Shown one piece after another: positions 1,008 through 62,335 of a stretch of DNA of 62,335 nt. Every line of letters begins with the position of its first letter. Within the stretch, counting starts at the first letter, position 1. The notes beneath the pieces were generated by a model. It was given only the letters and a program-made list of their open reading frames with translations, was not told where the DNA came from and ran no database searches. The position numbers and the translations under genes were made by a program. This DNA is from a virus: IMG/VR virus record IMGVR_UViG_3300030380_000755, positions 1 to 62,335 of that record; one strand, given 5' to 3'.

Positions 1008-2855
1008 ATGTCCCTAAAAAAGCTACTTTTAAAGTCTGGTGTGAACCGCGAAAACACACGCTACACAAGCGAAGGTGGCTGGTACGAGTGTGATAAGATA
1101 CGTTTTCGACAGGGTACACCTGAGAAGATAGGTGGTTGGCAACGTATATCTGCTACCACGTTTCAAGGTGTATGTAGGTCATTGTGGAACTGGGTAACAT
1201 TAGGTAGTCAGAACCTTATTGCTGTTGGCACTAACCTAAAATACTACATTGAGAACGGTGGAGCATATAGCGATATCACCCCATTACGTGCTACAGTAAC
1301 GCTTACAAACCCGTTTGCAACAACTTCTGGTTCTCCTATAGTTACGGTTACCGATGCAAATGGTGGATATACGGATGGAGATTATGTTACCTATAGTGGC
1401 GCTAGCGCCGTAGGTGGACTTACGCTAAATGGTGAATACCAGCTAACGTTGACTACTACAACTAACGAATACACAATAGATGCAGGTTCTGCGGCTTCTT
1501 CTACTGCAACGGGTGGTGGTACGGTTACAGCGGCGTATCAGATTAACGTCGGCACCGCGTTTGCTATCCCACTTACAGGTTGGGGCGCAGGTTCTTGGAG
1601 TTCAGGTATTTACGGTGTAGGCGTAACCTCTACAGAGTCTATCAGGCTTTGGAGTGAATCTAATTTTGGCGAAGACCTTGTTTTTGGTCCTCGCGGCGGC
1701 GGAATGTACTACTGGGACGCAAGCAACGGTTTAACTACACGAGGTGTAGAACTATCATCCCTTGGAGGCGCGAGTAATGTGCCCACAAGCCAGAAACTTA
1801 TAGAAGTGTCCGACATCAATCGTTTTGTGTTTGCGTTTGGTGCAAATGAGTTTGGTACTGCTACAGTAAACCCTATGTTGGTGCGTTGGTCAGATCAAGG
1901 TAGCGCGATAGACTGGACACCTTCTGTTACGTCACAGGCAGGGTTTCTTACATTATCTAACGGCACAGAGATAATTGCCGCAAAACAAGCACGACAAGAG
2001 GTATTGGTATGGACTGATTCCGCGCTGTATTCTCTACAATATGTGGGCGCTCCTGTAGTATGGTCAGCACAGCTTGTTGGTGAAAACATATCTACAGCAG
2101 CACAAAACTGTGTAGCCTATGCTAACGGTGTAGCCTATTGGATGGGTAAAGATAAGTTCTACAAATATGACGGGCGTACTCAACCATTACGCTGTGACCT
2201 ACGAAAGTTTATTTTTGGTAACTTTAATGAGCAACAGTATGAGCAAGTATTTGCAGGGACTAACGAATCTTATCACGAAATATGGTGGTTCTATTGTTCT
2301 GCAGACGCAACAGCTATAGATCGTTATGTGGTATATAACTACCTAGAAGATATTTGGTACTATGGCACAATGGCGCGTACTGCATGGCTTGATTCCGGTC
2401 TACGGGGTAATCCTCTGGCAGCTACGTACTCACACAACCTTGTAAACCACGAGGAAGGTGTAGATGACAACGAGACAGCCACCACTGCGGCGATACACGC
2501 GTTTATTGCTTCTGCAGAGTTTGATTTAGAAGACGGTCACCAGTTTGCATTTATCTGGCGTATATTACCCGATATACGGTTTGACGGGTCTACAACGGGT
2601 TCCCCTAGTGCAACAATGACGTTACTACCACTTGCTAATTCTGGTTCTGGTTATAATGATCCCTTGTCGGAAGGTGGAAGTAACTCAAGTGCGATAACGC
2701 GTACGGCTGTACTTCCTGTGGAAGCATATACAGGACAGATATACACTCGCGTGCGCGGTAGGCAGCTTGCTATGAAGGTAGAATCTACTGATGAAGGTGT
2801 TACATGGCAGCTTGGTTCGCCGCGAATTGACATGCGTCCTGATGGGAGGCGATAA
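1008..2855 (+). CDS. Virion structural protein, probably tail or neck
   Basis: 615-aa protein starting after a good ribosome binding site (AAGGTG). The N-terminus (about residues 8-45) has the pattern GVNRENTRYTSEGGWYEC followed by IRFRQGTPEKIGGW, which I know from structural proteins of marine podoviruses. Most of the rest is Gly/Ser/Thr-rich and predicted beta, with many aromatic-containing short repeats (YYWDASNGL, WWFYCS), consistent with a beta-propeller or tailspike/tail-hub fold. It ends TAATG with the next gene, the first of a virion block. The exact position in the particle cannot be told from sequence. Confidence 0.7.
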   Translation: MSLKKLLLKSGVNRENTRYTSEGGWYECDKIRFRQGTPEKIGGWQRISATTFQGVCRSLWNWVTLGSQNLIAVGTNLKYYIENGGAYSDITPLRATVTLTNPFATTSGSPIVTVTDANGGYTDGDYVTYSGASAVGGLTLNGEYQLTLTTTTNEYTIDAGSAASSTATGGGTVTAAYQINVGTAFAIPLTGWGAGSWSSGIYGVGVTSTESIRLWSESNFGEDLVFGPRGGGMYYWDASNGLTTRGVELSSLGGASNVPTSQKLIEVSDINRFVFAFGANEFGTATVNPMLVRWSDQGSAIDWTPSVTSQAGFLTLSNGTEIIAAKQARQEVLVWTDSALYSLQYVGAPVVWSAQLVGENISTAAQNCVAYANGVAYWMGKDKFYKYDGRTQPLRCDLRKFIFGNFNEQQYEQVFAGTNESYHEIWWFYCSADATAIDRYVVYNYLEDIWYYGTMARTAWLDSGLRGNPLAATYSHNLVNHEEGVDDNETATTAAIHAFIASAEFDLEDGHQFAFIWRILPDIRFDGSTTGSPSATMTLLPLANSGSGYNDPLSEGGSNSSAITRTAVLPVEAYTGQIYTRVRGRQLAMKVESTDEGVTWQLGSPRIDMRPDGRR

Positions 2856-3472
2856 TGCCTAGCGAGATTGATAGGGTAGTCCCACCTGCACTTCCGCTAG
2901 CACCTGAAGGGTATGATCGTCCATACATGGATCAGAACAGCAACGTGTTACGTTTGTTTTTTAATCGCCTTGTTAACTCATTAAACACCTTACTTAGCAC
3001 TGATGTTGGAGGTAAGTTTTTATATAACCCGTGCGCAGCGTTCCATAGCACACAGGATCAAACAGCCTCGTCCACAAACACGGGGTATGCGGTTACATTC
3101 AACAATACCTCGTATAGCAATGCCATTACGTTATCAAATAACAGTCGAATAAACGTACAAAACCCCGGTATATACAAGTTCGACGTTACGCTGCAGTTAG
3201 AACACAATAACTCTAGTGAGACACCTGTAACCGTTTGGGAACAAAAGAACGGTAGTGCGATAGCGTATTCGGGGCATATGTTTGACGTAAAAGGTAATGA
3301 TGACTACGTTATACACTGGGGGTTTACTGTTTCTTTGGTAGCAAACGACTACATAGAGGTTTATTGGGCAACAGGAGACACCCAGTTAAATTTACACACA
3401 GAAGCCGCTACGTCTCCACATCCCGGGATACCGTCTGCGTCTATAGACATCTCCTTTGTAAGTAACGTATAG
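2855..3472 (+). CDS. Structural protein with C-terminal C1q/TNF-like jelly-roll
   Basis: 205-aa protein. The N-terminal 60 residues are proline-rich then helical (RLFFNRLVNSLNTLL), a likely attachment segment. Residues about 75-205 look like a C1q/TNF-type jelly roll: AVTFNNTSYSNAI, then NNSRINVQNPGIYKFDVTL, two alternating hydrophobic strands and a terminal SIDISFVSNV. Such domains occur on phage surface proteins and trimerise. The start overlaps the upstream stop (TAATG). A short hairpin and the ACP gene follow. Surface display on the virion is inference. Confidence 0.6.
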   Translation: MPSEIDRVVPPALPLAPEGYDRPYMDQNSNVLRLFFNRLVNSLNTLLSTDVGGKFLYNPCAAFHSTQDQTASSTNTGYAVTFNNTSYSNAITLSNNSRINVQNPGIYKFDVTLQLEHNNSSETPVTVWEQKNGSAIAYSGHMFDVKGNDDYVIHWGFTVSLVANDYIEVYWATGDTQLNLHTEAATSPHPGIPSASIDISFVSNV

Positions 3473-3501: not shown

Positions 3502-3789
3502 ATGGACTTTATAGAGCTGTTCGACGCGTGTGTACAGGAAACTAAACCACGCTTAGACAAATATACTAAACCCACATCATTAGATGTTACCTTAAAAGAA
3601 GAAGATATTGGGCTGGATAGCCTAGACGTAACGCTTACGTTTGTCATGTTGTTTGAAATATATGGCATTCCAGAGACAGAAGATTTTAGCGTGCCCACCG
3701 AATCATTACGACATGTACGAGATTATATGTGGGATAACAAACAACGAGACTTCGATACTGTAAAAGCAGCTATGGAGGCTGTAATATGA
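3502..3789 (+). CDS. Acyl carrier protein-like protein
   Basis: 95-aa acidic helical protein. Residues 35-58 match the core of acyl carrier proteins: DIGLDSLDVTL then FVMLFEIYGIPE. The DSL motif puts Ser40 where ACPs carry 4'-phosphopantetheine, and the following helix has the usual acidic and hydrophobic face. A third helix (ESLRHVRDYMWDN) fits helix IV. Length is in the ACP range (75-95 aa). The stop overlaps the ATG of a ketosynthase gene (ATATGA), so the enzyme and its carrier are made together. Whether it is loaded by the host phosphopantetheinyl transferase cannot be seen. No transferase gene is visible in the window. Confidence 0.75.
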   Translation: MDFIELFDACVQETKPRLDKYTKPTSLDVTLKEEDIGLDSLDVTLTFVMLFEIYGIPETEDFSVPTESLRHVRDYMWDNKQRDFDTVKAAMEAVI

Positions 3790-4898
3790 TTTATTTATCC
3801 AAATTTTACAATAACTATGCCGAAAACACTACGTTGGTTGATGATGTACCGTTTCCACAACATGCGCATATACTCCTTGAAACTTTTAAACGTGCTAAAT
3901 CTGGGTTGAAATATCCGCCGCATACGTTGTTAGAAACAGTAATAACCGACGAAGCCATAAATTACGTGTTGGATAACCCCGTAAAAGGTAAGACCGCATT
4001 TATCTTTGCTGCAGGCAATCAAGGTTGGATGGCTAACAATGGACGTTATGATAAAAATGATGCTGCGGAATTACATTACAAAGTAAAGCTACCGTTTATT
4101 GTATTAACAAATATATACGCGGGGCGTGTGGCTAGTATGTTTCACGTGCACGACCACGTATCCACGGACGCTAGCGCGTGCGCGTCTAGTTTAAAGGTAA
4201 TGATGGACGTACAAAATCTTATGAATAACTTTGGGTTTGACCGTGTTATTGTGCTTAGTGGCGAAGATGCCGTTAACAATTTAACCTTAGAGTTTTTTGG
4301 TGAGGCAGGGGCTAGCTTGCAGTACAAAGACGAAGAACGCATAAAACCATCCGCGTTTGACAAGGTTAATCAAGGCTTTTTCTTAGGGCAAGGCGCAGCA
4401 CTATGTATATTTGAAAAACAACATGCTGGACTAACTAAACCTAGAGCCGCGTTTCTTGGCGCATATACATCTGCGGAAGACAATACAAACCCTCTTGGAC
4501 AACGTTCAGACGGCGAAGGCTATTCAAAAGCCATAGAAGGTGCTCTACACATTTCTTGTGTCCCAGCTTCACTTGTACAGGTGGTGAAAACTCATGGGAC
4601 AGGTACAGAAGTCAATAATAAAGCAGAAAAAGCCGCATTACAACGTAGTTTGGAGAAATTTGTGGCTACATCATACAAACAACGAATAGGCCATACTATG
4701 GGCGCTAGCGGGTTATTAGAGACAGGACTGTTGCTAAATGACATGGAATGCGGTATTGTACCACAAATCCTCAACAGGACTGAAGACGATGACGTGTTTT
4801 TGTCCTACGATGCGCCAGCCCCTCAAGGGCCATTTCTTAGTCTAGCCGCTGGCATGGGTAATATCTATTCAGCCGCAATTTTTTCTACGGAGGTGTAG
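3786..4898 (+). CDS. Beta-ketoacyl-ACP synthase (ketosynthase, KAS I/II type)
   Basis: 370-aa condensing enzyme of the thiolase fold, which joins an acyl-thioester to a malonyl-ACP extender or, in some relatives, decarboxylates malonyl-ACP. All catalytic residues are visible: Cys132 in STDASACASSL, His270 in VKTHGTGTE, and Lys298 and His303 in KQRIGHTMGASGLLETG. Their spacing (C to H 138, K to H 5) closely follows E. coli FabF. The C-terminal glycine motif is AAGMGNIYSAAIF. The protein is shorter than FabF (about 410 aa), mainly at the N-terminus. It is translationally coupled to the ACP gene and followed two bases later by a small gene of the same operon. It is an unexpected gene inside a virion module. 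Confidence 0.88.
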   Translation: MIYLSKFYNNYAENTTLVDDVPFPQHAHILLETFKRAKSGLKYPPHTLLETVITDEAINYVLDNPVKGKTAFIFAAGNQGWMANNGRYDKNDAAELHYKVKLPFIVLTNIYAGRVASMFHVHDHVSTDASACASSLKVMMDVQNLMNNFGFDRVIVLSGEDAVNNLTLEFFGEAGASLQYKDEERIKPSAFDKVNQGFFLGQGAALCIFEKQHAGLTKPRAAFLGAYTSAEDNTNPLGQRSDGEGYSKAIEGALHISCVPASLVQVVKTHGTGTEVNNKAEKAALQRSLEKFVATSYKQRIGHTMGASGLLETGLLLNDMECGIVPQILNRTEDDDVFLSYDAPAPQGPFLSLAAGMGNIYSAAIFSTEV

Positions 4899-4899
4899 A

Positions 4900-5367
4900 G
4901 TGGCGACTGTAATAGACAGTAAACAAACACAATTAGAACCTGCGCAGATCATACTAAAATTTGCGGAGGATTATAACGATACGGGGTACCCTGTTGAGGC
5001 TGTTGCGGCGGGTGTAATAAAAGAGGTAACAATGCCCGACACCGATCTGGTGCAATTTGGTAATACCGCATTTATTGGGCATAGAGGTAAAGGTAAAAAT
5101 AAAGACCTTATGTGGGGACGTGGTTTAACTGTAGACACCGCACAAAACTTCATTGCGGCAGGACTAAAGTATTTTACTCATTTACAAAATATAGGCATAA
5201 AACGTTATACTACAGATTATAATGGTGATATATATGATAGTGCGTTTAGAACGTGGAAACGGTACGCAGATCGCGTCGATACTAAGATTGCCGTAGGACG
5301 TAAAGCTAACGGTGGTTCTAGGGCGTATGTTACTTTGGGAGAAATGCCATTGAGTGAGATAACTTAA
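4900..5367 (+). CDS. Unknown protein, possibly GNAT-fold acyltransferase-like
   Basis: 155-aa protein with a GTG start placed by a clear GGAGGT five bases upstream, just after the ketosynthase stop. I do not recognise a family with certainty. The order of predicted elements from residue about 45 onward (strand NTAFIGH, helix DTAQNFIAAGLKYFTHL, strand RYTTDY, helix DSAFRTWKRYA, then strands KIAVGRK and AYVTLGE) resembles the second half of GNAT N-acyltransferases. Similar proteins occur beside internal virion proteins in podoviruses. Given its neighbours, it could take acyl groups from ACP, or simply be an internal virion protein. Confidence 0.5.
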   Translation: MATVIDSKQTQLEPAQIILKFAEDYNDTGYPVEAVAAGVIKEVTMPDTDLVQFGNTAFIGHRGKGKNKDLMWGRGLTVDTAQNFIAAGLKYFTHLQNIGIKRYTTDYNGDIYDSAFRTWKRYADRVDTKIAVGRKANGGSRAYVTLGEMPLSEIT

Positions 5368-5368
5368 T

Positions 5369-8300
5369 ATGCCGATTGGTGAACTAATAAGCGATGTAAT
5401 CGGTGGCGCTGCAGACCTCGTAGGAGATGTTGTTGGTCTCGTTGGTGATGCGGTTGAGTGGGTTGTAGATGAAATAATAGAGCCTGTAGTGAGTGGCATT
5501 GGTGATGTTGTTGAGTATGCGCTCGACAATCCCATTGAAGCTCTTGCAACATTAGCAGTTACTGTGGCCGCGCCGTACGCCGCGCCTTTTCTTGGTACTA
5601 CAGCTACCGCATTAACGGGCGCTGCTAAATGGGTAATACCGTTGGCTAGCGGCACGCAAACCTTGGTTAACGGTGGTAGTATTAGTGATGCTGTTAAATC
5701 CGCTGCCATTAGTTTCGCGGGTACATATGCGGGTAAAATAGCTGGAACCTATATTAATCCTACAATAGAAAATATAACGTCCAAAGCCATATCTAATACA
5801 AAATTAGCAAGTACAGTGTCTAACGTGTTAGGCGCAGGTACAAAGTCCGCTACTAAAACTTTTGTACGAACTGGTGATTTAAAAGCAGCAAGCACCGCGT
5901 TTACTCAATCCGTAGCTCTTGGAGGTGTGAATGCAGGGTTAGAAGCCGCAACAGATGCGGTTATGGGTAATATTAATGATACCTTGCAGAAAACTGGATT
6001 TGGTAAAGAATTTAATGATCTTTCTTCGGGGATCAAAGATTCAATTTATACTAGTGTAGCCGCAGAAATTACAGGGCAAAACTTATCTACACAACAAATA
6101 GTAAACGCGTTAGATTCTAATGGTTTTGTTACAGACCTTATTAATAAATACGTACCTGTAGCAAGTTTTATGGATGGGTTTATAGAGGATGCTAAAGTTA
6201 GGCTAGGCAAAGATTTATCAGCTACACAGATACAACTTCTATCCGATGCAATGTCAGCAAGTTGGGAGAAAGCAAAAGAAGGAAATCCCGATTTAACAGG
6301 CGAGGCGTTCTTTGGTAGCTTGCAAGAAGACGCATACGAAGAGTTAATTGATACTATTAGTGATCCTATCGATGCAGCTTTAGACAATATTACAGGAAAT
6401 GCAGCTAGCGCAGAATTAGCTGCAGCACCACTTAATGAAGCTATTAGAAAAAGCGCTGAAGCAGCAGCTAACTTCAATGAATTGACAGGGCAACTAACCG
6501 AACGAATTGCGGAACAAGAACGATTACAAGGTGTATACGATGATGCAAGAGCGCAGCATAATGCTAACCCGTCGCAAGCAACAGCAGATGCCGTTAACAC
6601 CGCAGCGGCGGCATTCAACGATCACACAATAAATTTAAATGCAGACTACCCAAGTATCAAAGAGCAATTGGACGAATACAAAGCTCAACACGATAAATAT
6701 GAGCCTACGATAGAAGGCTTACAAGAAACGTATGACGAAGAATCTAAATATCTTATATCTGACATTGAAGATTTAGATGCTGCGCTTAAACCTATGTTAA
6801 CAGGTGTAGATCGAATAACTGCTATTGCGTTACGTCCCGGCATTGATGAAAATGGATACAGGGAAGCTATGGGGCTTGGTCCTGACGAAGATGTTTATGG
6901 ACATTACTTAGCGAATCAAAAATTAGCAGACAATATTATTGCTGCAGACATTGCAGCGGGCTACGTCAACATGGCAAATAATAACATATCTTCGGATAGT
7001 CTACCAAACATACCTAGCGAAATAACCCGTCCCACTATCTATGGTGCGCCTAAAGGGTTAACAATACCTGACAGCCCTGACGCACTAAACATAGATTTTA
7101 CTGCGCCAAAACCACCTGTAGTATATAGCGGACGTGGCGGCGATCCACGAGATTATGGATTAACAGAAGAAGAAGTAGCTGAATACATGGCAGATAATAT
7201 TGCTGCAGGTGTGTTTGACACGTTTAAAACAACCGCATCAGACCTATACAGAAATTTTACATCAGGCGGGGCAGAAGCTGGTGCTTACACTGTGGGCGGA
7301 TTTGGTACGTTTGCAGACGAAATAGCAGAAAATATGATTGATGCATTTAATGTAGACTACTCAGACGCTGAAGCTATTTTCTACAACAGTCTTGCAGTAC
7401 AATACGACCCAAATCTAACGGACGACGAAAAAGCTGAAGCACTGGCGCAAAACACTGCTGCATATCTTGCAGCAACAGAAAAAATAAAGGCGGAACAAGG
7501 TTCTACCGTTACTGTTTTTTCATCGTACACTGATCCATTAAAAAAATATATTATGGACATTAGCGATGCGGAGGAGGCCAAAATATCTCCTGAAATGCAG
7601 GTCCGCCAATACAATGCACTACCTGCACCCGATACTACTTGGGAACAAATTCTTTCAGGAAAAGCTAAAGACCGTCTTGGGCGTCCCTATGGGTTTGGTG
7701 ATCCTCTTGCAACGGTGATGTCTGGAGTACAAGAACTTCCCGACCTTGCGGTTGATATGGCGCTACTTGCTATAACTAAAAACCCTGCAATATTAGGTGG
7801 TACCGTAGCGGTAACGAGTATGGCAGAGGCGGGAGACGCCGCAGCGGATGAGATTGAAGAAGCGCTTACCAATGCGCGTGCGTCAGGGGAGCTACAAAAA
7901 ACACAAGAGTTTGCCGATTTAGTACGAGTATTTGATGGAGATGAAGACGCTGCGTTTGAAAGACTAGTAGACCAAAGTATGGGGTATGCTGCCACAACAG
8001 GTGTTATTGGTGGTATTGGGGACGTTGTTTTAGGTAAGATTGCAGGCGCTAGTGGTGGATCTAAATTACTATCTACAGTTCCTGTTGGTCTACAGACGGT
8101 AGTTAAAACAGGTACAGGCGGTGTTTCTGGGGGTATTAACGAAGCTGTAGAACAAGTACCTATAAACATGGCGCAGATTGATGCTGGGTTAGATGTTGAC
8201 ATTGATTCAGGTACTGGCGCAGCGTTTTTAGTCGGTTTATCAAGCGAGGGCACTGCAACTGCAGGGGCGGCGTCTCTCACAGCTATTACTGACACAGTAA

Positions 8301-11119
8301 ACAAAATTAAAAACGGTACGTATTCGTACACAATGCCTGACGGCACCACTGTGTCACCGGAACCGCCTAGCGGGGACCAAACACCACTTATAAATACTGT
8401 ATCAGACAACCTAGCTCTGTTTGAATTATACACCAACCTACTAAATGATCTTAGCAGTTGGGGGGCTATACCGTCTGATTCTACACAATTTGATGCGCCG
8501 CAGCTAATTAGCACGCTAGAAAACTTGGGTATTGAAGATACTACGTTTATACAAAATGCAGCCAATACTGCGTATGGCGATCAAGTTATAACAAAATATG
8601 AGGTAGACACGGCTCTAGGTAATGTGCAGCCAGACTTTAAACTAGATGACAATGCGTATGCCGTTCTTACTGGTGCAATCCCCAATGCTGATGCCGCTGC
8701 CATCGTTGCAGCGTATATTGACCCACTCTACATTGACGCGGATGAAGTTAAAGAAGCCGCTGCAGAAGAAGGCATAGAACTTACCGATGAGCAAATTGAT
8801 GCAATCGTAGGGCAGAAAGATGAAGCCGAGGCAGTGAAAGAAATTGATGAGTTAGGTACATCAGAGGCAGAAGCACGTAAATTTTTTACTGATCTTGGTT
8901 ACGAACCCACCGACGAAGAAGTACAGCAGTATGTAGGCTCTGTGTCTGAATCAGATCAGCAGACAGCTATTGGTAACTATGTTGACCCACGGCAGGTAAC
9001 CGAAGCAGAAGCGCGTAAATTCTTTGAAGATCAAGGTTATACACCAACAGACGAAGAAATTGTAAACTTTATAGGACAGGGCAACGTAAATTTTGAAACT
9101 AATACAAGCGAACGTGTTCCTACATACATAGACCCACGCCAAGTTACAGAAGCAGAAGCTCGTAAGTTTTTTGAGGATCAAGGGTACGACCCTACAGACG
9201 AAGAAGTTGCTAATTATGCTGGGCAAGGTAATGCTGATTTTGAGGCTACTGCACCTGACCGCGTAGGAAGTTATGTAGACCCACGACAGGTCACGGATGA
9301 AGAAGCGCGTGAGTTTTTTACAAATCTTGGGTATGACCCGACAGATGAGCAGGTTGCACAGTTTGTTGCACAGGTTGAAGAGACCACACAGTCTGGACTT
9401 ATTGCGTCTTATGTAGACCCACGACAGGTTACCCGTGAAGAAGTGCAGGCTATTGCCGATGAAGAAGGGCTTACCTTAACTGATGCTCTAGCAGCCACAT
9501 ATGTAGGTCAAGGTGTAGCGGAGAATTATGCGTCCGAGAAACTATCGGAAGCACGTGCAGAATACGATCCGTTAGCAACCACACTGGAAGAAGCTACACA
9601 ATTTTTTGCAGACACAGGGTACACTGCAACGACAGAAGAAATTGCGCAGTTTGTTGCTTCTAAAACGGAAGAAACACAGACAAGTGCTATCGGTAGTTAC
9701 GTTGACCCACGACAAATAACCGCAACAGAAGCGGAAGAATTTCTAAGTGCTATCGGGTATCAACCATCACAGGAAGATATTGCAGCGTTTACTGGACAGG
9801 TAAATGACGAAAACTATCAGACTACACAAAAAGCCGCCATTGATGAATTCGTTGATCCGAGGTTTTTTGACGCTGGTGAGGTTCGCGCAGCTTACGAAGA
9901 ATTGGGTCTTGTAAATGTAACACAAGAAGATGTGGATAAGTTTGTTGGGCAGTTTGATCCTGAATCTGAAGACTATGACGCCACAGGTTTTGAAGCATTT
10001 CAACGCGGAGAGTTGGAAACGTACGCACCAACAGCTACAAACAACATTATTGCGGCTGTTATAGGGACGCCTGCAGTTGAAGATGATCCAAATACGCCCG
10101 AAGATGAATCTAAAGATGCTACAGGCATATATGCTGAGTTTGAAGCAGGTAAAGACAGAGACGAAGCTTTAGATGCCGCAATAAATAAAGTAGCTGAAGA
10201 TTTAGGCACTACAAAAACTGATTTATTAGATGAACTTGGACTTACAGAAGACCGTCTTAACGAAGAAATTGACGCTGTAGTTGAAGATGTTGCAGGCTTA
10301 ACCGAAGAAATTGGTGACGTAGAAACACGCCTAACTGGATTAATTGAAAAGAACGACGGTGATGTTGACGCTGCACTTGAAGAATTATCTACCGCGCTTG
10401 GTACTACAGAAACAAACATACTCACAGAACTTGGTATTACTAAAGGCGAACTAACTGAAAGTTTTAAAACCGCTATAGGTGACGTAGAAACTAGCCTTGG
10501 TGCAGATATAGACGCAGTAGCGGACCTTGTTGGTAAACCTGCACGAGAGGTTACACAGGAAGATATAGATTTTGTAATTGATTTAATTGCACAAGAAAAT
10601 GTCAGCGAAGAACTAATCATGCAATATGATGTTACTGGAGACGGTATCATTGACATAGGTGACCAAGCTCTGTTAGAAACAGCATTACAGGGTGAAGAAG
10701 ATGTTACTCTTGCAGATACGTCCATGTTTGCGCCAGACACAGGTATATACGGCGAAATAGACACACAGACGGACGCAATCACTGATATGATTACTGATCT
10801 GAACACTCAGATTACTACGCAACAGCAACAGGAAAATTTACGGGACTTACTATCAATGGAGCAACAGGGCTTATTTAAAGGGGCAAAAACCACAGTTTCT
10901 GCTGCAGACCCTGCAAATATTGATTATCTATATGATTTTAACAGCATATTTGCTAATCCGTCACAACAAGGACTGTTTGCAAGCCCATATAGCACTACAA
11001 CTCGTAACAAAACGGCAAACCAACCCATGGCACCAATGCCTATGGCTAGCGGGTTTGCAAAGGGTGGACAGGTTGAGGATGAAAATGATATGCTACTAAG
11101 AATACTTGGAGGTATGTAA
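5369..11119 (+). CDS. Giant internal virion/ejection-type protein with tandem repeats
   Basis: 1916-aa protein. The first 100 residues are Gly/Ala/Val-rich and amphipathic (VIGGAADLVGDVVGLVG, then LATLAVTVAAPYAAPFLG), suited to membrane interaction. Coiled-coil-like helices follow at about 350-470. Residues about 1115-1530 hold nine degenerate repeats of 45-50 aa built on YVDPRQVTEAEARKFF and GYxPTDEEVxxFxGQ. An ETRL-type helical stretch follows. At about 1753-1772 there is a calcium-loop motif DVTGDGIIDIGDQALL. The C-terminus ends in SGFAKGGQ and LLRILGGM, a tail seen in other proteins of this phage. No tape-measure features were seen. A role as a protein ejected into the host is inferred from size, acidity and place in the operon. 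Confidence 0.65.
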   Translation: MPIGELISDVIGGAADLVGDVVGLVGDAVEWVVDEIIEPVVSGIGDVVEYALDNPIEALATLAVTVAAPYAAPFLGTTATALTGAAKWVIPLASGTQTLVNGGSISDAVKSAAISFAGTYAGKIAGTYINPTIENITSKAISNTKLASTVSNVLGAGTKSATKTFVRTGDLKAASTAFTQSVALGGVNAGLEAATDAVMGNINDTLQKTGFGKEFNDLSSGIKDSIYTSVAAEITGQNLSTQQIVNALDSNGFVTDLINKYVPVASFMDGFIEDAKVRLGKDLSATQIQLLSDAMSASWEKAKEGNPDLTGEAFFGSLQEDAYEELIDTISDPIDAALDNITGNAASAELAAAPLNEAIRKSAEAAANFNELTGQLTERIAEQERLQGVYDDARAQHNANPSQATADAVNTAAAAFNDHTINLNADYPSIKEQLDEYKAQHDKYEPTIEGLQETYDEESKYLISDIEDLDAALKPMLTGVDRITAIALRPGIDENGYREAMGLGPDEDVYGHYLANQKLADNIIAADIAAGYVNMANNNISSDSLPNIPSEITRPTIYGAPKGLTIPDSPDALNIDFTAPKPPVVYSGRGGDPRDYGLTEEEVAEYMADNIAAGVFDTFKTTASDLYRNFTSGGAEAGAYTVGGFGTFADEIAENMIDAFNVDYSDAEAIFYNSLAVQYDPNLTDDEKAEALAQNTAAYLAATEKIKAEQGSTVTVFSSYTDPLKKYIMDISDAEEAKISPEMQVRQYNALPAPDTTWEQILSGKAKDRLGRPYGFGDPLATVMSGVQELPDLAVDMALLAITKNPAILGGTVAVTSMAEAGDAAADEIEEALTNARASGELQKTQEFADLVRVFDGDEDAAFERLVDQSMGYAATTGVIGGIGDVVLGKIAGASGGSKLLSTVPVGLQTVVKTGTGGVSGGINEAVEQVPINMAQIDAGLDVDIDSGTGAAFLVGLSSEGTATAGAASLTAITDTVNKIKNGTYSYTMPDGTTVSPEPPSGDQTPLINTVSDNLALFELYTNLLNDLSSWGAIPSDSTQFDAPQLISTLENLGIEDTTFIQNAANTAYGDQVITKYEVDTALGNVQPDFKLDDNAYAVLTGAIPNADAAAIVAAYIDPLYIDADEVKEAAAEEGIELTDEQIDAIVGQKDEAEAVKEIDELGTSEAEARKFFTDLGYEPTDEEVQQYVGSVSESDQQTAIGNYVDPRQVTEAEARKFFEDQGYTPTDEEIVNFIGQGNVNFETNTSERVPTYIDPRQVTEAEARKFFEDQGYDPTDEEVANYAGQGNADFEATAPDRVGSYVDPRQVTDEEAREFFTNLGYDPTDEQVAQFVAQVEETTQSGLIASYVDPRQVTREEVQAIADEEGLTLTDALAATYVGQGVAENYASEKLSEARAEYDPLATTLEEATQFFADTGYTATTEEIAQFVASKTEETQTSAIGSYVDPRQITATEAEEFLSAIGYQPSQEDIAAFTGQVNDENYQTTQKAAIDEFVDPRFFDAGEVRAAYEELGLVNVTQEDVDKFVGQFDPESEDYDATGFEAFQRGELETYAPTATNNIIAAVIGTPAVEDDPNTPEDESKDATGIYAEFEAGKDRDEALDAAINKVAEDLGTTKTDLLDELGLTEDRLNEEIDAVVEDVAGLTEEIGDVETRLTGLIEKNDGDVDAALEELSTALGTTETNILTELGITKGELTESFKTAIGDVETSLGADIDAVADLVGKPAREVTQEDIDFVIDLIAQENVSEELIMQYDVTGDGIIDIGDQALLETALQGEEDVTLADTSMFAPDTGIYGEIDTQTDAITDMITDLNTQITTQQQQENLRDLLSMEQQGLFKGAKTTVSAADPANIDYLYDFNSIFANPSQQGLFASPYSTTTRNKTANQPMAPMPMASGFAKGGQVEDENDMLLRILGGM
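8713..9960 (+). repeat. Coding tandem repeats (YVDPRQVT / GYxPTDEE units)
   Basis: Nine imperfect repeats of about 135-150 bases inside the 1916-aa gene. Each encodes a VDPRQ-type turn, an acidic helix with EARKFFxxxGY, then PTDEE and a hydrophobic QFVxQ end. The two units around 8986-9240 share long stretches of protein identity but differ at many third codon positions. This shows old duplications kept by selection on the protein rather than recent slippage. Confidence 0.85.
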
Positions 11120-35616: not shown

Positions 35617-35894
35617 TGCATACGTCCCCCTTGGTTCTGCACACACCGCTTCAAGAACGCGGCGGCTTCTTCCTCGGCTTCACGTACGACAGTATCTTCG
35701 TGCGCATCTGCAAGCATATCAGAGCCATGGTCACGCATGAAATCATCAAACATACCCATGATACCTACGAGTATAGACGCCCTTATGTGGACAGGCTGCT
35801 CCATGAAATCTTCCATGAACTCCATACCGATAGACACATCTGTATCGTCAATGTCAGCGTGTATCTCTAGTACCTTCATCTTCTTAGCCATCAT
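35613..35894 (-). CDS. Small acidic helical protein, unknown
   Basis: 93-aa Met/Asp/Glu-rich protein (IHADIDDTDVSIGMEFMEDF, later DMLADAHEDTVVREAEEEAA). GGAGG precedes two adjacent ATG codons. The 3' end overlaps the zinc-ribbon gene and the 5' end overlaps the VWA gene, so it belongs to the same transcript. No family recognised. Confidence 0.6.
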   Translation of the reverse strand: MMAKKMKVLEIHADIDDTDVSIGMEFMEDFMEQPVHIRASILVGIMGMFDDFMRDHGSDMLADAHEDTVVREAEEEAAAFLKRCVQNQGGRMH

Positions 35895-37078
35895 AAATCC
35901 TCCGACTGTACATGCACCGTCACACCGTGATCGGGCTTGGCATTCTTGTTATCCACGATCACCCACAACACAGGATGATCCCACGTACCCCAACCACCGT
36001 AGAGGTAGCCATCTGTAAACACGATAGACGCTTGTGGTTTTATGTTATGCTCGCGCAAATATGCAGGGACACAACGTACATCTGTGCCGCCCCCACCTAC
36101 AGGGTTAGTCTTGGCCGCTACGGTATACAGTTCGTCGTTGGTATACTTCTCGTACCCACAGACTTCTGTGTCCCAATAGCTTACGTGTAACTCGTCAGGC
36201 TTGACTGCTTCACAGATACCAACCAATTCACTAATCATTATCTGCTGTTCACGCTTACCGATGGAACCAGACATGTCGTTGTGTTCTGCGATACACTCAA
36301 CTTGTTCTGAGATGCCGCTTGGCATGTAGATACCTGCCGACACGTATTTACGATTTGGTTTATTCCATGTTGAGTAGTCGCTACCTGCACAGGTTGTTTG
36401 TACAAATTCACGCAACGCTTCACGCCAATCAACCTTGGGCTTCAACAATTCTTCCATGTCACGGTTGCCACCACTGCCCATCTTACCTGCAACAAGTGAA
36501 CCTTGGCGTATGGCCTCGTCCACCTCGCGTTGTATCTCACGTTGCTCGTCGGGCGTCATGTCTTGTGCACCTTCCCAATCGTGATCGTCGAACCCTTGGG
36601 GATGATTGCCACGGCCACCGCCGCCACCGCCATCTTCTTCGTTGTATATATCCCAGAAGATTTTAGCCGTACCCCAACCCTTGTATTTGGGATTATGGCA
36701 TCCACCCTTGGGCATCTTGACCCAACCATCTTCGCTGTACTCCTCAATGATCTTACCATTGATATCGTAGTCCATTGCGATGTTGGCGGTGTGCGGACAT
36801 ATCTTCCACAAGTGTGCCCACGTTACCAAGTGACGATACATCTTGTGGAACACCTCGTGTATCACGACGAACCGTAACTCTGCATCGTTATGTGCAGATA
36901 CAAACGCCCTACCGTAAAACTCGTCACGTCCGTTGGTACAGGCTGTTGGCACCTTGTCATCAATCGTACGTTCACCGATCATTAGCAACCCTGATATCTC
37001 GGGGATACGCGGCATGATATCAACGACTGCTTTGGATAGCCGTTGTTCTTCCGTTAGTTGTTTACCTATTGTCAACAT
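35891..37078 (-). CDS. VWA-domain protein with N-terminal HExxH metallopeptidase-like region (DUF2201 type)
   Basis: 395-aa partner of the MoxR-type ATPase. Residues about 70-110 contain VVIHEVFHKMYRH, a zincin-like HExxH, and AMDYDING, as in DUF2201 proteins. A glycine and acid-rich linker (DGGGGGGRGNHPQG) follows. The C-terminal half is a von Willebrand A-like domain whose metal site is complete: DMSGS, GGGGTD and FTDGY. ATG 37078 is chosen because GGAGG lies upstream and it overlaps the previous stop (TAATG). MoxR-VWA pairs act as chaperone-like or metal-inserting machines in bacteria; the phage target is unknown. Confidence 0.85.
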   Translation of the reverse strand: MLTIGKQLTEEQRLSKAVVDIMPRIPEISGLLMIGERTIDDKVPTACTNGRDEFYGRAFVSAHNDAELRFVVIHEVFHKMYRHLVTWAHLWKICPHTANIAMDYDINGKIIEEYSEDGWVKMPKGGCHNPKYKGWGTAKIFWDIYNEEDGGGGGGRGNHPQGFDDHDWEGAQDMTPDEQREIQREVDEAIRQGSLVAGKMGSGGNRDMEELLKPKVDWREALREFVQTTCAGSDYSTWNKPNRKYVSAGIYMPSGISEQVECIAEHNDMSGSIGKREQQIMISELVGICEAVKPDELHVSYWDTEVCGYEKYTNDELYTVAAKTNPVGGGGTDVRCVPAYLREHNIKPQASIVFTDGYLYGGWGTWDHPVLWVIVDNKNAKPDHGVTVHVQSEDL

Positions 37079-37299
37079 TATTCTTTCCTCCATACACGTG
37101 TGTCACGTGTCATTAGATCAATTGTTTTCATTGCAATTTTTATTTTTACTGCTCTAGCCGCTGCGTATGTATTTCCTCGTAGAGAATCTGGAATTACGAA
37201 ACTGTCCCCGACCTCCATCTTTTCAAGCGTTAAGCGTAACTCGCCTTTCTTATCTGCACCCCGTTCTGGGATTGGGATATTTTTTTCTATTTCAAACAT
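37078..37299 (-). CDS. Conserved small phage protein (MEVGDSFVIP / RVWRKE type)
   Basis: 73-aa protein with the pattern KMEVGDSFVIPDS, then RGNTYAAARAVKIKI and terminal RVWRKE. This is a very common unnamed protein of marine phages, often near VWA/MoxR or replication genes. GGAGAAAA lies directly after palindrome copy 4 and before the ATG. It is coupled to the VWA gene. Function unknown; size and basicity suggest a DNA-binding regulator. Confidence 0.7.
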   Translation of the reverse strand: MFEIEKNIPIPERGADKKGELRLTLEKMEVGDSFVIPDSLRGNTYAAARAVKIKIAMKTIDLMTRDTRVWRKE

Positions 37300-37311
37300 T
37301 ATCTTTTCTCC

Positions 37312-37331
37312 ATTTAGGGAATTCCCTAATT
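37312..37331. promoter_or_regulatory. 20-bp palindrome, copy 4
   Basis: ATTTAGGGAATTCCCTAATT, with two bases shared with the TAA stop of the MoxR gene. On the minus strand it is followed directly by GGAGAAAA and the ATG of the 73-aa gene. Confidence 0.82.
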
Positions 37332-38421
37332 ACTTTTTATCCGCTGCAAACATGTAGTTGTTCTGCATTGCCCATGCGGTGAACTTCTTGTTCTTCATCA
37401 CCATTGACTGCTTACTGTACTTGGGTGCACGTACACCGTTGGCGAACATACCCTGTGCCTCCACGTCCAAACGTGGCATGTAGTCCATCCACGCGTTGAG
37501 CCAGTCAGCTTCGATAGATGCAAGCGTACGATAGACAACCATACAAATACCTGCGGCACTGTCAGGAACTTTGGCTTTCTTTGGCTCGTCCTTGATAGAC
37601 TGTAGACTTGGCAGTTGGTCAGACAGTTTCACAAACGCCATCAAGTCCATAGCACCACGGTCACCGATAGTACCCATCAGTAGAGCCGTTAGCGTCTGGT
37701 CATCGAACGCATGACGTTGGTGTAATATGTCAGACGCAGAGTGTAACGAGCGTGGGGTCACAAACGCAGTCCGCTGTTGCTTCGGATGAAATATGTATGG
37801 GTTCTCGTCAGGGTCTTTGATTTCCTCGAATGATGCGAACAGTTGAGGATTGTCCTTGCACCAACCAAGCAAGCTGTGGTCGATACCTTCGTTGATACCC
37901 CATTCGATCCACGCCATGTTGTCAGTCTTACGCACCTGTACCACGGACACACGGTTACGTGCATGTGGTGGTAACATGTCACCCACACCCTCGGACCCTT
38001 TGTTAGTCGTCGCATACACAATGCTGTCAGGATGCAGCTTGATGCTACCCACCGTACGTTCTTGCATGACGCGTAGTAGTGCGTTCTTAACGGCAGGGTT
38101 GGCCTTACCAAACTCGTCAATCATAACAATGATCGGCTTACCCAGATGCGCACCCAATTCTTCGTTGGGCACAAAGGTCACATAGCCTTGCTCGTTCATC
38201 ACTGCCATGTTGGGCAGGTTCAAGTCACCCAAGTCTTTTGTGGTACAATCAAAGTAACACGGTGTATGGGTGGGGAACAACTCCGCTAGCATGTGAATTG
38301 TTGAGGATTTACCATTACCGATGTCACCTTGCAGAAGTATGGTACGTTGAGTGCCCACCGCTGCGATTGCTTTGACACACTGGTCTAGGTTGAGGGCATA
38401 CATTTGTTGTGCATTGTTCAT
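37330..38421 (-). CDS. MoxR-type AAA+ ATPase
   Basis: 363-aa ATPase. Walker A is GDIGNGKSST (about residue 32), Walker B IIVMIDEFGKA, sensor 1 VYATTNKGSEG, arginine finger region PPHARNRV. The length and the absence of further domains fit MoxR/RavA-like ATPases, which pair with VWA proteins; such a protein lies two genes downstream. The set could remodel phage or host complexes, or insert metal cofactors. GGAGAA follows palindrome copy 5 before the ATG. Confidence 0.88.
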   Translation of the reverse strand: MNNAQQMYALNLDQCVKAIAAVGTQRTILLQGDIGNGKSSTIHMLAELFPTHTPCYFDCTTKDLGDLNLPNMAVMNEQGYVTFVPNEELGAHLGKPIIVMIDEFGKANPAVKNALLRVMQERTVGSIKLHPDSIVYATTNKGSEGVGDMLPPHARNRVSVVQVRKTDNMAWIEWGINEGIDHSLLGWCKDNPQLFASFEEIKDPDENPYIFHPKQQRTAFVTPRSLHSASDILHQRHAFDDQTLTALLMGTIGDRGAMDLMAFVKLSDQLPSLQSIKDEPKKAKVPDSAAGICMVVYRTLASIEADWLNAWMDYMPRLDVEAQGMFANGVRAPKYSKQSMVMKNKKFTAWAMQNNYMFAADKK

Positions 38422-38438
38422 TTGTTCTTCTCCATTTT

Positions 38439-38458
38439 ATTTAGGGATTTCCCTAATT
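38439..38458. promoter_or_regulatory. 20-bp palindrome, copy 5
   Basis: ATTTAGGGATTTCCCTAATT. Located five bases upstream of the GGAGAA of the MoxR gene on the minus strand. The centre (ATTT) differs from the AATT of the perfect copies, while both seven-base core arms are nearly intact. Confidence 0.8.
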
Positions 38459-38460
38459 GA

Positions 38461-38565
38461 TTAATATCCAAAACCGTGGACGATAAATAATAGTGCGAGT
38501 GGGACGCCAAATACGCATAGCGCCCCGATTAGGTCTTTGAGAAAATTGCGGATACGTCCCTTCAT
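38461..38565 (-). CDS. Tiny membrane protein
   Basis: 34-aa protein: basic amphipathic start (MKGRIRNFLKDLIG) then one hydrophobic helix (ALCVFGVPLALLFIVHGFGY). AGGAGAAAG precedes ATG 38565, which overlaps the upstream stop (ATGA). It ends three bases before palindrome copy 5. Its small size hides it from ordinary gene finding. Function unknown. Confidence 0.6.
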   Translation of the reverse strand: MKGRIRNFLKDLIGALCVFGVPLALLFIVHGFGY

Positions 38566-38699
38566 TCTTTCTCCTCTTCTGATAAAAACGAACGCAGGTT
38601 CTTTTCTGATACGTCACCAAGCAACTCCTCAATCGCGGTCATGTCACCTGCTTCCACATCTTTTTTGATTTGCTTCAAAACTTTATCAACCAATTCCAT
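38562..38699 (-). CDS. Small acidic protein (TAIEELLxxVxxxxLxxFL type)
   Basis: 45-aa protein, MELVDKVLKQIKKDVEAGD followed by TAIEELLGDVSEKNLRSFL. This two-helix pattern is a recurring tiny protein in marine phages. Start and stop both overlap neighbours (TAATG and ATGA), giving a tightly coupled chain from the 306-aa gene to the membrane peptide. No function is known to me. Confidence 0.65.
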   Translation of the reverse strand: MELVDKVLKQIKKDVEAGDMTAIEELLGDVSEKNLRSFLSEEEKE

Positions 38700-39619
38700 T
38701 ACATATCCAGACTTGGTAGTGCCGCGATAGCAGCGGTGATTTTGTTGCGCGTTTCTTCACGCAGCGATGGGCTGTTCTTGATCTGATCTAGGTTAATAGT
38801 ACGATCACCCGATATATGGAACGCCTGTTCCAACCGTTGCCGCATGGCTTCCATCTGACTATCTTGTGTGATGTTACATGTACGCAACATCTCGGTCAGC
38901 TCGACGGCTCGGTCAAACACACTGTCATACAGACGATTGCCTTTACCTTCCTCGTTCACATCCAGTTGACGTGCGAGTGTGGTTAAGTTGTCATACAGTT
39001 TTTGCCATAGGTCATTCATAGCAGCAGTGATACGTGTGGTGTATGTATCTGACGCACTTGCGCGTACCATGTTCAAGGCTTCGTGTGGTAAATCCAACAC
39101 CCAATTACCTGTGTTGCCACCATCTGGTAACTCATTATAGGATAAACGAAACGCAAACTTGCGCCGCACTGTCTCACTTGTTGGATACTCGTCACGATTA
39201 AACAGTGTACCTAGCTTGGCTTGGGCGTCCATCACCTTCCAATCATACACACCCATGAACTGCTCGACTAGACGCTCGAACTCTTGTTGTAGGTCGGTCA
39301 TCACTTCGTTGTATTTGAAATATTGTTGCGTGGTCAGCAATCGGGAGCCGTTGTCAGACCATGGCATTGTCATGCTGTAGTGCATGTTACGCACGTTGCC
39401 TGCAAACTTCTGTACTGCAATCAACTCGTCACAGTTACCCAACAGCTTCTTGCGTACATCGGCTACGCCTTTGTCGGCTTGTGCCAAACTTGTTACTTCG
39501 TTGGACGCTTTGAGGTCTTGCTTACGTGCAGTCCATACGGACGCGTTGAAGTCCACAGTCATTGCGGATGATGAAATGCTAGGCACTTCGATTTGTGGTA
39601 GTTCAAGAATATTATTCAT
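38699..39619 (-). CDS. MoxR-associated protein, DUF3150-like
   Basis: 306-aa helical protein. Features are KKLLGNCDELIAVQKFAGNV, RNMHYSMTMPWSDNGSRLL, an FERLVEQFMGVYDW helix and a C-terminal segment ISGDRTINLDQIKNSPSLRE. Proteins of this plan accompany MoxR and VWA genes in phages and are reminiscent of DUF3150, so I take it as the third component. It is preceded by GGAG after palindrome copy 6. No catalytic residues were identified. Confidence 0.6.
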   Translation of the reverse strand: MNNILELPQIEVPSISSSAMTVDFNASVWTARKQDLKASNEVTSLAQADKGVADVRKKLLGNCDELIAVQKFAGNVRNMHYSMTMPWSDNGSRLLTTQQYFKYNEVMTDLQQEFERLVEQFMGVYDWKVMDAQAKLGTLFNRDEYPTSETVRRKFAFRLSYNELPDGGNTGNWVLDLPHEALNMVRASASDTYTTRITAAMNDLWQKLYDNLTTLARQLDVNEEGKGNRLYDSVFDRAVELTEMLRTCNITQDSQMEAMRQRLEQAFHISGDRTINLDQIKNSPSLREETRNKITAAIAALPSLDM

Positions 39620-51934: not shown

Positions 51935-52427
51935 AAATATGAAAAAGAAAAAGAAAAAGAAAAGTGGCGCACCCCAAAGCTCTTTGCGCCCTAAAGAACG
52001 TCCTGTAGACGATGGCGGCGCTGTAGCACGAGGAAATCGTGCGGCTATGCGACAAGCTACGGACGCGGCTACACTTACTATGCCAGAAGGACAAAATATG
52101 AAAGCTGGTGGTATGGCTAAGAAAGGCTACAAAGCTGGTGGTAAAATGAAAAAAGGCTACAAAGCTGGTGGTAAAATGAAAAAAGGCTACAAAGCTGGTG
52201 GTAAGCTAGAAATGGTCAAAAACAAACAGGGCAATACAGTTCCTTTTTATGCTGCTGACGGTAAAGGTAAAATGAAAGCTGGCGGTAAAGTTAAAAAAGG
52301 TTATGCCGCAGGTGGTAAAACCAAAGGTGCAGCTAAAGGTGGTAAAACTAAAGGCGCAGCTAGAGGTGGTAAAGTACGAGGAGCAGGTATTGCTCGCAAA
52401 GGTGTACGCCCAGCAAAGATAGTCTAA
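51909..52427 (+). CDS. Lysine/glycine-rich repeat protein
   Basis: About 172-aa extremely basic protein. After MKKKKKKKSG and a short PEGQNMKAGGMAKK segment it has three tandem GYKAGGKMKK repeats, then further AGGK and GGKTKGAA repeats to the end (GVRPAKIV). ATG 51909 is chosen because AAGGA lies eight bases upstream; the next codon is also ATG. The composition resembles histone-tail or nucleoid-condensing proteins. A DNA-condensing role in the virion is inference. Confidence 0.6.
   Translation: MMRPMMRPENMKKKKKKKSGAPQSSLRPKERPVDDGGAVARGNRAAMRQATDAATLTMPEGQNMKAGGMAKKGYKAGGKMKKGYKAGGKMKKGYKAGGKLEMVKNKQGNTVPFYAADGKGKMKAGGKVKKGYAAGGKTKGAAKGGKTKGAARGGKVRGAGIARKGVRPAKIV
52122..52204 (+). repeat. 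30-bp tandem repeats encoding GYKAGGKMKK
   Basis: Nearly three identical 30-base units. The DNA identity is complete between units two and three, so they arose or were homogenised recently. Further weaker AGGK repeats follow to 52370. Confidence 0.85.
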
Positions 52428-61974: not shown

Positions 61975-62335
61975 TGGAAAACATGAAGCTCCCTATAACG
62001 GTAATAGGCGTTATCGTCTTGCAGATAGGTGGCTTTATCTGGTGGACTGCGCAGCAAGCAAGTACAATCTCAAACCTTGAAGAGACAGTGAGCATTTTAA
62101 CTGTTGAAAACAACGCTACGGACAGAACAAATTTAATTAGAGATGTAGAGCAAAATAAAGAAAAAATAGATGAAATGATTGATACTCTTGCTGAAATGTA
62201 TGAAGACATGGAGGATTGGGATAACGAAATCTGGGATGAAGTGGATATGATCCACGAAGATATGGGCGGTATGGCTTCTCATATGATGGAAATCATAAAG
62301 ATTCAGGCTCGTGTTAAGACCCTAGAAGGCACGTT
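61974..62335 (+). CDS. N-terminal part of membrane-anchored coiled-coil (spanin-like) protein
   Basis: Begins at TAATG after the holin-like gene and runs off the contig end with no stop. It has a membrane helix at residues 5-22 (LPITVIGVIVLQIGGFIWWT) and then an acidic coiled coil (TVSILTVENNATDRTNLIRD, EMIDTLAEMYEDMEDWDNEI). Codons after 62222 repeat those at bases 2-114, in the same frame, so the gene is completed at the left end. Topology suggests an inner-membrane spanin; not proven. Confidence 0.75.
   Translation, partial: MENMKLPITVIGVIVLQIGGFIWWTAQQASTISNLEETVSILTVENNATDRTNLIRDVEQNKEKIDEMIDTLAEMYEDMEDWDNEIWDEVDMIHEDMGGMASHMMEIIKIQARVKTLEGT
62222..62335 (+). repeat. Right copy of the contig-end overlap
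   Basis: Counterpart of bases 1-114 with eight substitutions, seven of them within the first 34 bases, and an identical run from 62256 to 62296. The divergence is more than sequencing error would give and mostly silent, so the two ends may derive from two co-occurring strains. Confidence 0.9.

Follow-up and report, generated by a model that had tools for sequence, protein, structure and literature searches.

Lipid genes reported from phages are the nearest precedents for the locus described here. As far as the available parts of the sources go, an acyl carrier protein (ACP) or a fabF gene is listed singly as an auxiliary metabolic gene (AMG) in Erythrobacter phage R6L, Alteromonas phage R22Y, and Fonsibacter pelagimyophages (PMC5463345, PMC11705849, PMC7029224). 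Phage ACP genes are on record (PMC5463345, PMC11705849), as is fabF from pelagimyophages and from viromes (PMC7029224, PMC10653327); no cassette joining an ACP to a ketosynthase (KS) and a GNAT is described in these excerpts. Similarly, a fabG-acpP-fabF set appears among prophage predictions in Rhodobacteraceae (PMC8224337), in which the ACP adjoins fabF, as it adjoins the KS in our locus; however, fabG is also present there, in the gene order usual for bacteria, the set is possibly host DNA, and the accessible portion of the report mentions no GNAT.

Two groups of enzymes that use acyl-ACP bear on the third gene of the locus. RtxC enzymes share the GNAT fold but not its CoA-contacting elements, and their donor is acyl-ACP (PMC8339906). 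Along the same lines, N-acyl amino acid synthases of the FeeM type are fed by acyl-ACP (PMC8762209). Among open-licence papers, we found no description of an ACP-KS-GNAT cassette. By comparison with these systems, the locus appears to bring known folds together in a new, recurrent combination and place, for which a function can be proposed.

The three genes and their setting

The window, i.e., the whole stretch of 62,335 nucleotides that was analyzed, derives from an uncultured phage of marine type. It is probably a complete genome, or nearly so, whose terminal redundancy is imperfect, because a 113-nt direct repeat, 94% identical, lies at both ends (positions 2-114 and 62223-62335). The closest capsid, terminase, and tail genes belong to the Pelagibacter phages HTVC023P and HTVC027P, DSL-LC04, 023Pt_psg01, the Synechococcus phage MinM2, and the Roseobacter phage CRP-901; in the phages inspected among these nearest relatives, no recognizable ACP or KS occupies the cassette slot. 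CRP-901, a cultured relative by its capsid and tail genes, carries a GNAT gene flanked by the tail genes and a large late gene, but this is a canonical Pfam GNAT accompanied by neither ACP nor KS, and no profile similarity to the cassette GNAT was detectable.

Positions 3502-5367 hold three ORFs of 95 aa (3502-3789), 370 aa (3786-4898), and 155 aa (4900-5367), all on the plus strand, as are the features below unless stated otherwise. The first two overlap by four bases, ATGA, and the third has a GTG start codon, a single base away from the KS stop. The initial annotation had proposed an ACP-like gene with a DSL serine (Ser40), translationally coupled to a KS with the complete catalytic set at FabF-like spacing and followed by a 155-aa protein of possible GNAT layout, the whole lying among virion genes. 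This observation is borne out in each of its parts: the KS is confirmed by Pfam, the ACP by a family profile, and the GNAT fold by its model. The accompanying interpretation, in which the phage would make or modify an acyl chain, is supported in part.

The surroundings are those of a late, virion operon. Upstream lie a 615-aa virion structural or tail stabilization protein (1008..2855; phrog_3287, 7.8e-67, with homologues annotated as stabilization protein) and, in the same operon, a 205-aa tail-type protein (2855..3472) with a weak match to the minor tail family phrog_737 and a position kept in relatives. An endolysin gene is also found upstream. Downstream follows a late protein of 1916 aa (5369..11119), a candidate internal or ejection protein by virtue of its position, which is likewise kept in relatives; family searches gave no strong match for it. 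Within the 1916-aa protein are several degenerate ~45-aa repeats with the pattern YVDPRQVTEAEARKFFEDQGYxPTDEE.

The ACP (3502..3789) is identified by the combination of profile, model, and motif. Its family profile matches ACPs in the PDB at 1.1e-4, and the AlphaFold2 model, computed from 23 relatives, has a pLDDT of 91.8 and an ACP-like helical fold. The top 50 Foldseek matches are all carrier proteins or complexes containing one, with a best E-value of only 0.04. Pfam PP-binding does not match the window ACP and matches four of 19 relatives (best 8.8e-4). Ser40 (codon AGC, 3619..3621), the predicted 4'-phosphopantetheine attachment site, sits within a GLDSLD motif and is the first residue of helix 40-54 in the model, as in ACPs; D-S-L-D is invariant in all aligned ACPs, including those of phages without KS. 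A search of 14 phage records found no phosphopantetheinyl transferase (PPTase).

The KS (3786..4898) is a divergent protein of the KAS I/II type. Both Pfam domains, Ketoacyl-synt_C (PF02801; 4.1e-15, 56.3 bits) and ketoacyl-synt (PF00109; 1.6e-9, 38.2 bits), pass the gathering score of 20.8, FabF in the PDB is matched at 6e-20, and phrog_35856, a family of unknown function, at 7.7e-35. The nucleophile Cys132 (4179..4181) aligns with the FabF active-site Cys, His270 (4593..4595), in an HGTGT-type motif, with FabF HGTST, and Lys298 and His303 (KxxxGH, 4677..4694) with FabF KSMTGH; all four residues are invariant in an alignment of 20 divergent KS homologues. Thus far, the phage enzyme resembles FabF and FabB of type II fatty-acid synthesis (FAS-II) in fold family, catalytic set, and spacing. 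It differs in that, compared with a cellular FabF, it is ~30 residues shorter at the N-terminus, as are its phage relatives, and it carries GMGN in place of the GFGG gating loop, which is absent from all 20 aligned phage KSs; the FabF gating Phe is replaced by an invariant Met357 (4854..4856). It also falls far under the curated FabF/FabB cut-offs, reaching 101.7 bits against the 493.75 of the NCBIfam FabF equivalog. With the exception of one pair of very close sequences, dN/dS is about 0.03-0.08, which points to strong purifying selection, and the KS is likely catalytically active, judging from its residues. No chain-length factor partner of the kind found in type II polyketide synthases was detected, with only one KS per phage record.

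In the phylogenetic tree, all phage KSs group in a single clade (SH-aLRT 100), which sits on a long stem apart from the available FabF, FabB, and type I PKS references; the exact attachment point is unsure because of the long branches. The clade adds a new branch to an enzyme family that has been studied widely. KS matches in deposited records of Listeria, Enterococcus, Staphylococcus, Pseudomonas, and Escherichia phages look like bacterial FabF/FabB; they were rejected as relatives and kept solely as cellular references. For instance, NC_049343, OR846827, and OQ572406 are deposited as phages and contain apparently bacterial FabF/FabB genes, and the prophage ends of NC_049343 are probably wrong, because its KAS I gene adjoins a tRNA-modification gene of the mnmC type. 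Four KS genes (L021, L022, L023, and L024) combine two types of N-terminal half with near-identical C-terminal halves, which suggests recombination inside the KS gene.

The 155-aa protein (4900..5367) has an AlphaFold2 model with a pLDDT of 92.8 and the GNAT topology helix-helix-three strands-helix-strand-helix-two strands; its best PDB Foldseek matches are GNATs (probability 1.00, E 7e-4). It matches no Pfam or NCBIfam model. The family conserves two motifs, GNTxF and R-x-x-x-x-D-T/S, and lacks the canonical Q/RxxGxG/A CoA P-loop, where the consensus reads R-A-x-N-x-D-T-A-x-N-F. The missing P-loop and the adjacent ACP are points of likeness to the toxin-activating acyltransferases RtxC/HlyC; in contrast to these, the phage protein shows no detected sequence similarity, no RTX toxin, and no invariant catalytic His. 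Since the family alignment contains no invariant His of the kind used by RtxC (H61 varies), the GNAT-fold protein could be non-catalytic. In position, the gene recalls that of T7 gp13 (PF11090), an internal virion protein that is also small and occupies the same slot, between a tail gene and the genes of internal virion proteins. Homology with gp13 was rejected at the level of profiles (hhalign probability 0.2%, no PF11090 match), and T7 has neither ACP nor KS in that slot.

Recurrence, nesting, and exchange of the parts

More than 100 viral contigs show the order ACP-KS-GNAT, with KS identity down to 53%, so that the conservation sought in related viral contigs is found, and the ACP end and KS start share ATGA in 70 of the 73 distinct KS-bearing loci. 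Of the 50,697 deposited phage records, only MW202545 is a genuine relative; this uncultured circular genome of 57 kb has a gene annotated as 3-oxoacyl-ACP synthase (KS identity 53%), an ACP, and the third gene in the same order. A scan of genome contigs yielded a single relative, on a contig that itself looks like phage and belongs to a Balneolaceae MAG. In IMG/VR, KS relatives were found in 33 and then 566 stretches, the 566 possibly including some cellular-like KSs, and relatives of the third gene in 382. The statement in the initial annotation that such genes are rare in phages holds for deposited records but not beyond them, as hundreds of uncultured viral contigs match and, in the available parts of the sources, a single ACP or fabF is already listed as an AMG (PMC5463345, PMC11705849, PMC7029224, PMC10653327).

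The three genes occur in a nested fashion. Sixty-seven of the 84 distinct GNATs are accompanied by ACP and KS, 11 by an ACP without KS, two by an ACP and a short KS remnant, and four by neither. A KS without an ACP was never seen among genuine phage KSs. In KS-less loci, the ACP directly abuts or overlaps the GNAT, and four KS-less contigs of 60-66 kb, similar in length to the window, have no KS anywhere; contigs G009 and G011 contain no ACP. Two loci retain short KS remnants between ACP and GNAT (L153:2198-2275 and L168:4291-4400), which indicates that the KS was lost from them; L168 keeps the first KS codons and the last part of the KS on either side of an internal deletion. Thus, the GNAT is the constant element, and the ACP, then the KS, are optional additions. 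A second genomic setting is provided by L027:3267-4680, where an ACP-KS pair with no nearby GNAT lies among replication-type genes resembling nuclease, helicase, and nucleotide-metabolism genes; L171 is a near relative of L027.

Comparisons between loci indicate that the parts have moved separately. The window and the locus L001 share 95% identity in ACP and 92% in KS, but only 61% in GNAT, from which it follows that the GNAT recombines apart from the ACP-KS pair. KS-less phages are scattered on the GNAT tree, requiring four changes, whereas their ACPs form a single clade (SH-aLRT 93); the ACP, with or without KS, is therefore exchanged as a block between GNAT backgrounds, and, for the same reason, one type of ACP goes with the absence of KS. 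Across 69 loci, ACP distances have a partial r of 0.53 with GNAT, 0.31 with KS, and 0.11 with the tail gene, even though the KS lies between ACP and GNAT; that the ACP tracks the GNAT more than the KS or the tail gene is suggestive only, the Mantel test ignoring shared ancestry.

Proposed function and its alternatives

We tentatively favor a late-expressed phage acyl-transfer cassette made up of ACP, KS, and GNAT, without regarding it as probable. A host PPTase would modify Ser40 to give the holo form of the phage ACP, which is likely, as no phage PPTase was found, and host FAS-II would load malonyl and acyl groups onto it. The KS would act as a condensing enzyme with a Cys-His-His triad and a changed gate, and would likely set the chain; this enzymatic ACP-KS step is the likely part of the scheme, judging from conserved residues. 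The co-oriented GNAT-fold protein may then take the acyl chain from the phage ACP, as RtxC enzymes do from theirs, and transfer it to an amine. We infer that this amine would most likely belong to a virion or ejection protein, since the cassette directly precedes inner-virion genes, with a small-molecule acceptor as the alternative. Lipidation of such a protein would help membrane insertion or assembly. The GNAT being constant, the ACP, then the KS, would be refinements that give the phage control over donor and chain. In its most specific form, i.e., a phage lipidation system whose own ACP and KS build a defined acyl chain and whose GNAT joins this chain, late in infection, to a virion protein such as an ejection protein, the proposal is doubtful.

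Several observations argue for the acyl-transfer cassette. Despite about 50% divergence, neither the active-site residues nor the ACP serine vary, and strong purifying selection, the fixed order, the ATGA coupling, the nested occurrence, the abutment of ACP and GNAT in KS-less loci, the ACP distances that track those of GNAT, and the lack of a PPTase in the phage records searched all point the same way. A GNAT fold without a Q/RxxGxG/A loop recalls RtxC enzymes, which use acyl-ACP instead of acyl-CoA (PMC8339906), and a KS-less ACP clade would be expected if the ACP type were matched to the presence of KS. Against it stand the lack of an invariant His, the four distinct GNAT sequences without ACP, the ACP-KS pair of L027 with no nearby GNAT, and the recombination of the GNAT apart from its partners. 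If the proposal is right, the structural operon of hundreds of uncultured phages would encode an acyl-transfer chemistry of its own. This would amount to a novel means of preparing virion proteins to cross membranes, or to a lipid product of phage origin. The natural variants (GNAT; ACP-GNAT; ACP-KS-GNAT; KS deletions) offer ready comparisons for the contribution of each part.

The alternative to be weighed first, unlikely but serious, is that ACP and KS are lipid AMGs that, late in infection, raise or divert fatty-acid elongation by the host, the GNAT being an unrelated gene of the virion operon. FAS-II proteins are the best matches of both ACP and KS, the GNAT is found without them, and L027 keeps the pair among replication-type genes without GNAT; in the available parts of the reports, both fabF and ACP are phage AMGs (PMC7029224, PMC11705849). 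However, the KS score far under the FabF cut-off and the long stem of its clade are unlike a recently captured host gene, the cassette lies in the late operon in almost all cases, and the ACP stays beside the GNAT after KS loss; the window ORFs scanned include no reductase or dehydratase partner.

The three proteins might instead make a small molecule, such as an N-acyl amino acid, an AHL-like compound, or another acyl amide with a signaling or membrane-active role, in the manner of FeeM-type synthases, although we consider this rather improbable. N-acyl amino acid enzymes that use acyl-ACP are known (PMC8762209, PMC4897644), and the Foldseek matches of the GNAT include the CoA-dependent AHL synthases BjaI and MesI. 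At 155 aa, however, the phage protein is shorter than these matches (195-213 aa), and it differs from the FeeM type in having no family match and in its phage late-operon setting; no export or regulator gene was recognized near the cassette, and the GNAT, where present, always lies between virion genes.

Less probable still is a decoy or structural role, in which the ACP, together with a KS that consumes malonyl units, sequesters PPTase, malonyl-ACP, or host FAS partners and halts host lipid synthesis, or the ACP acts as a structural chaperone, a role that ACPs have in other complexes. An ACP can stand without KS, no other pathway enzymes were found, and many of the structures that Foldseek matched to the ACP model are ACPs serving as structural subunits of complex I; yet the full KS catalytic set is conserved under strong constraint, and host shut-off would be less useful at a late position. 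Finally, an assembly chimera or bacterial contamination has a negligible probability: other KS matches in deposited phage records do appear to be host DNA, but the same module with the same junctions is present in over 100 viral contigs as well as in the circular MW202545 and the phage-like MAG contig, and, because the gene order is kept in this many contigs, the cassette is neither chance nor an assembly chimera.

Two further features were seen elsewhere in the window. In the early region, on the minus strand (35891-39619), a trio of genes for a DUF2201 metallopeptidase/VWA protein, an AAA ATPase, and a DUF3150-like protein resembles a MoxR-VWA module. At 52101-52318, 30-nt repeats in four aligned copies would encode Lys/Gly-rich units.
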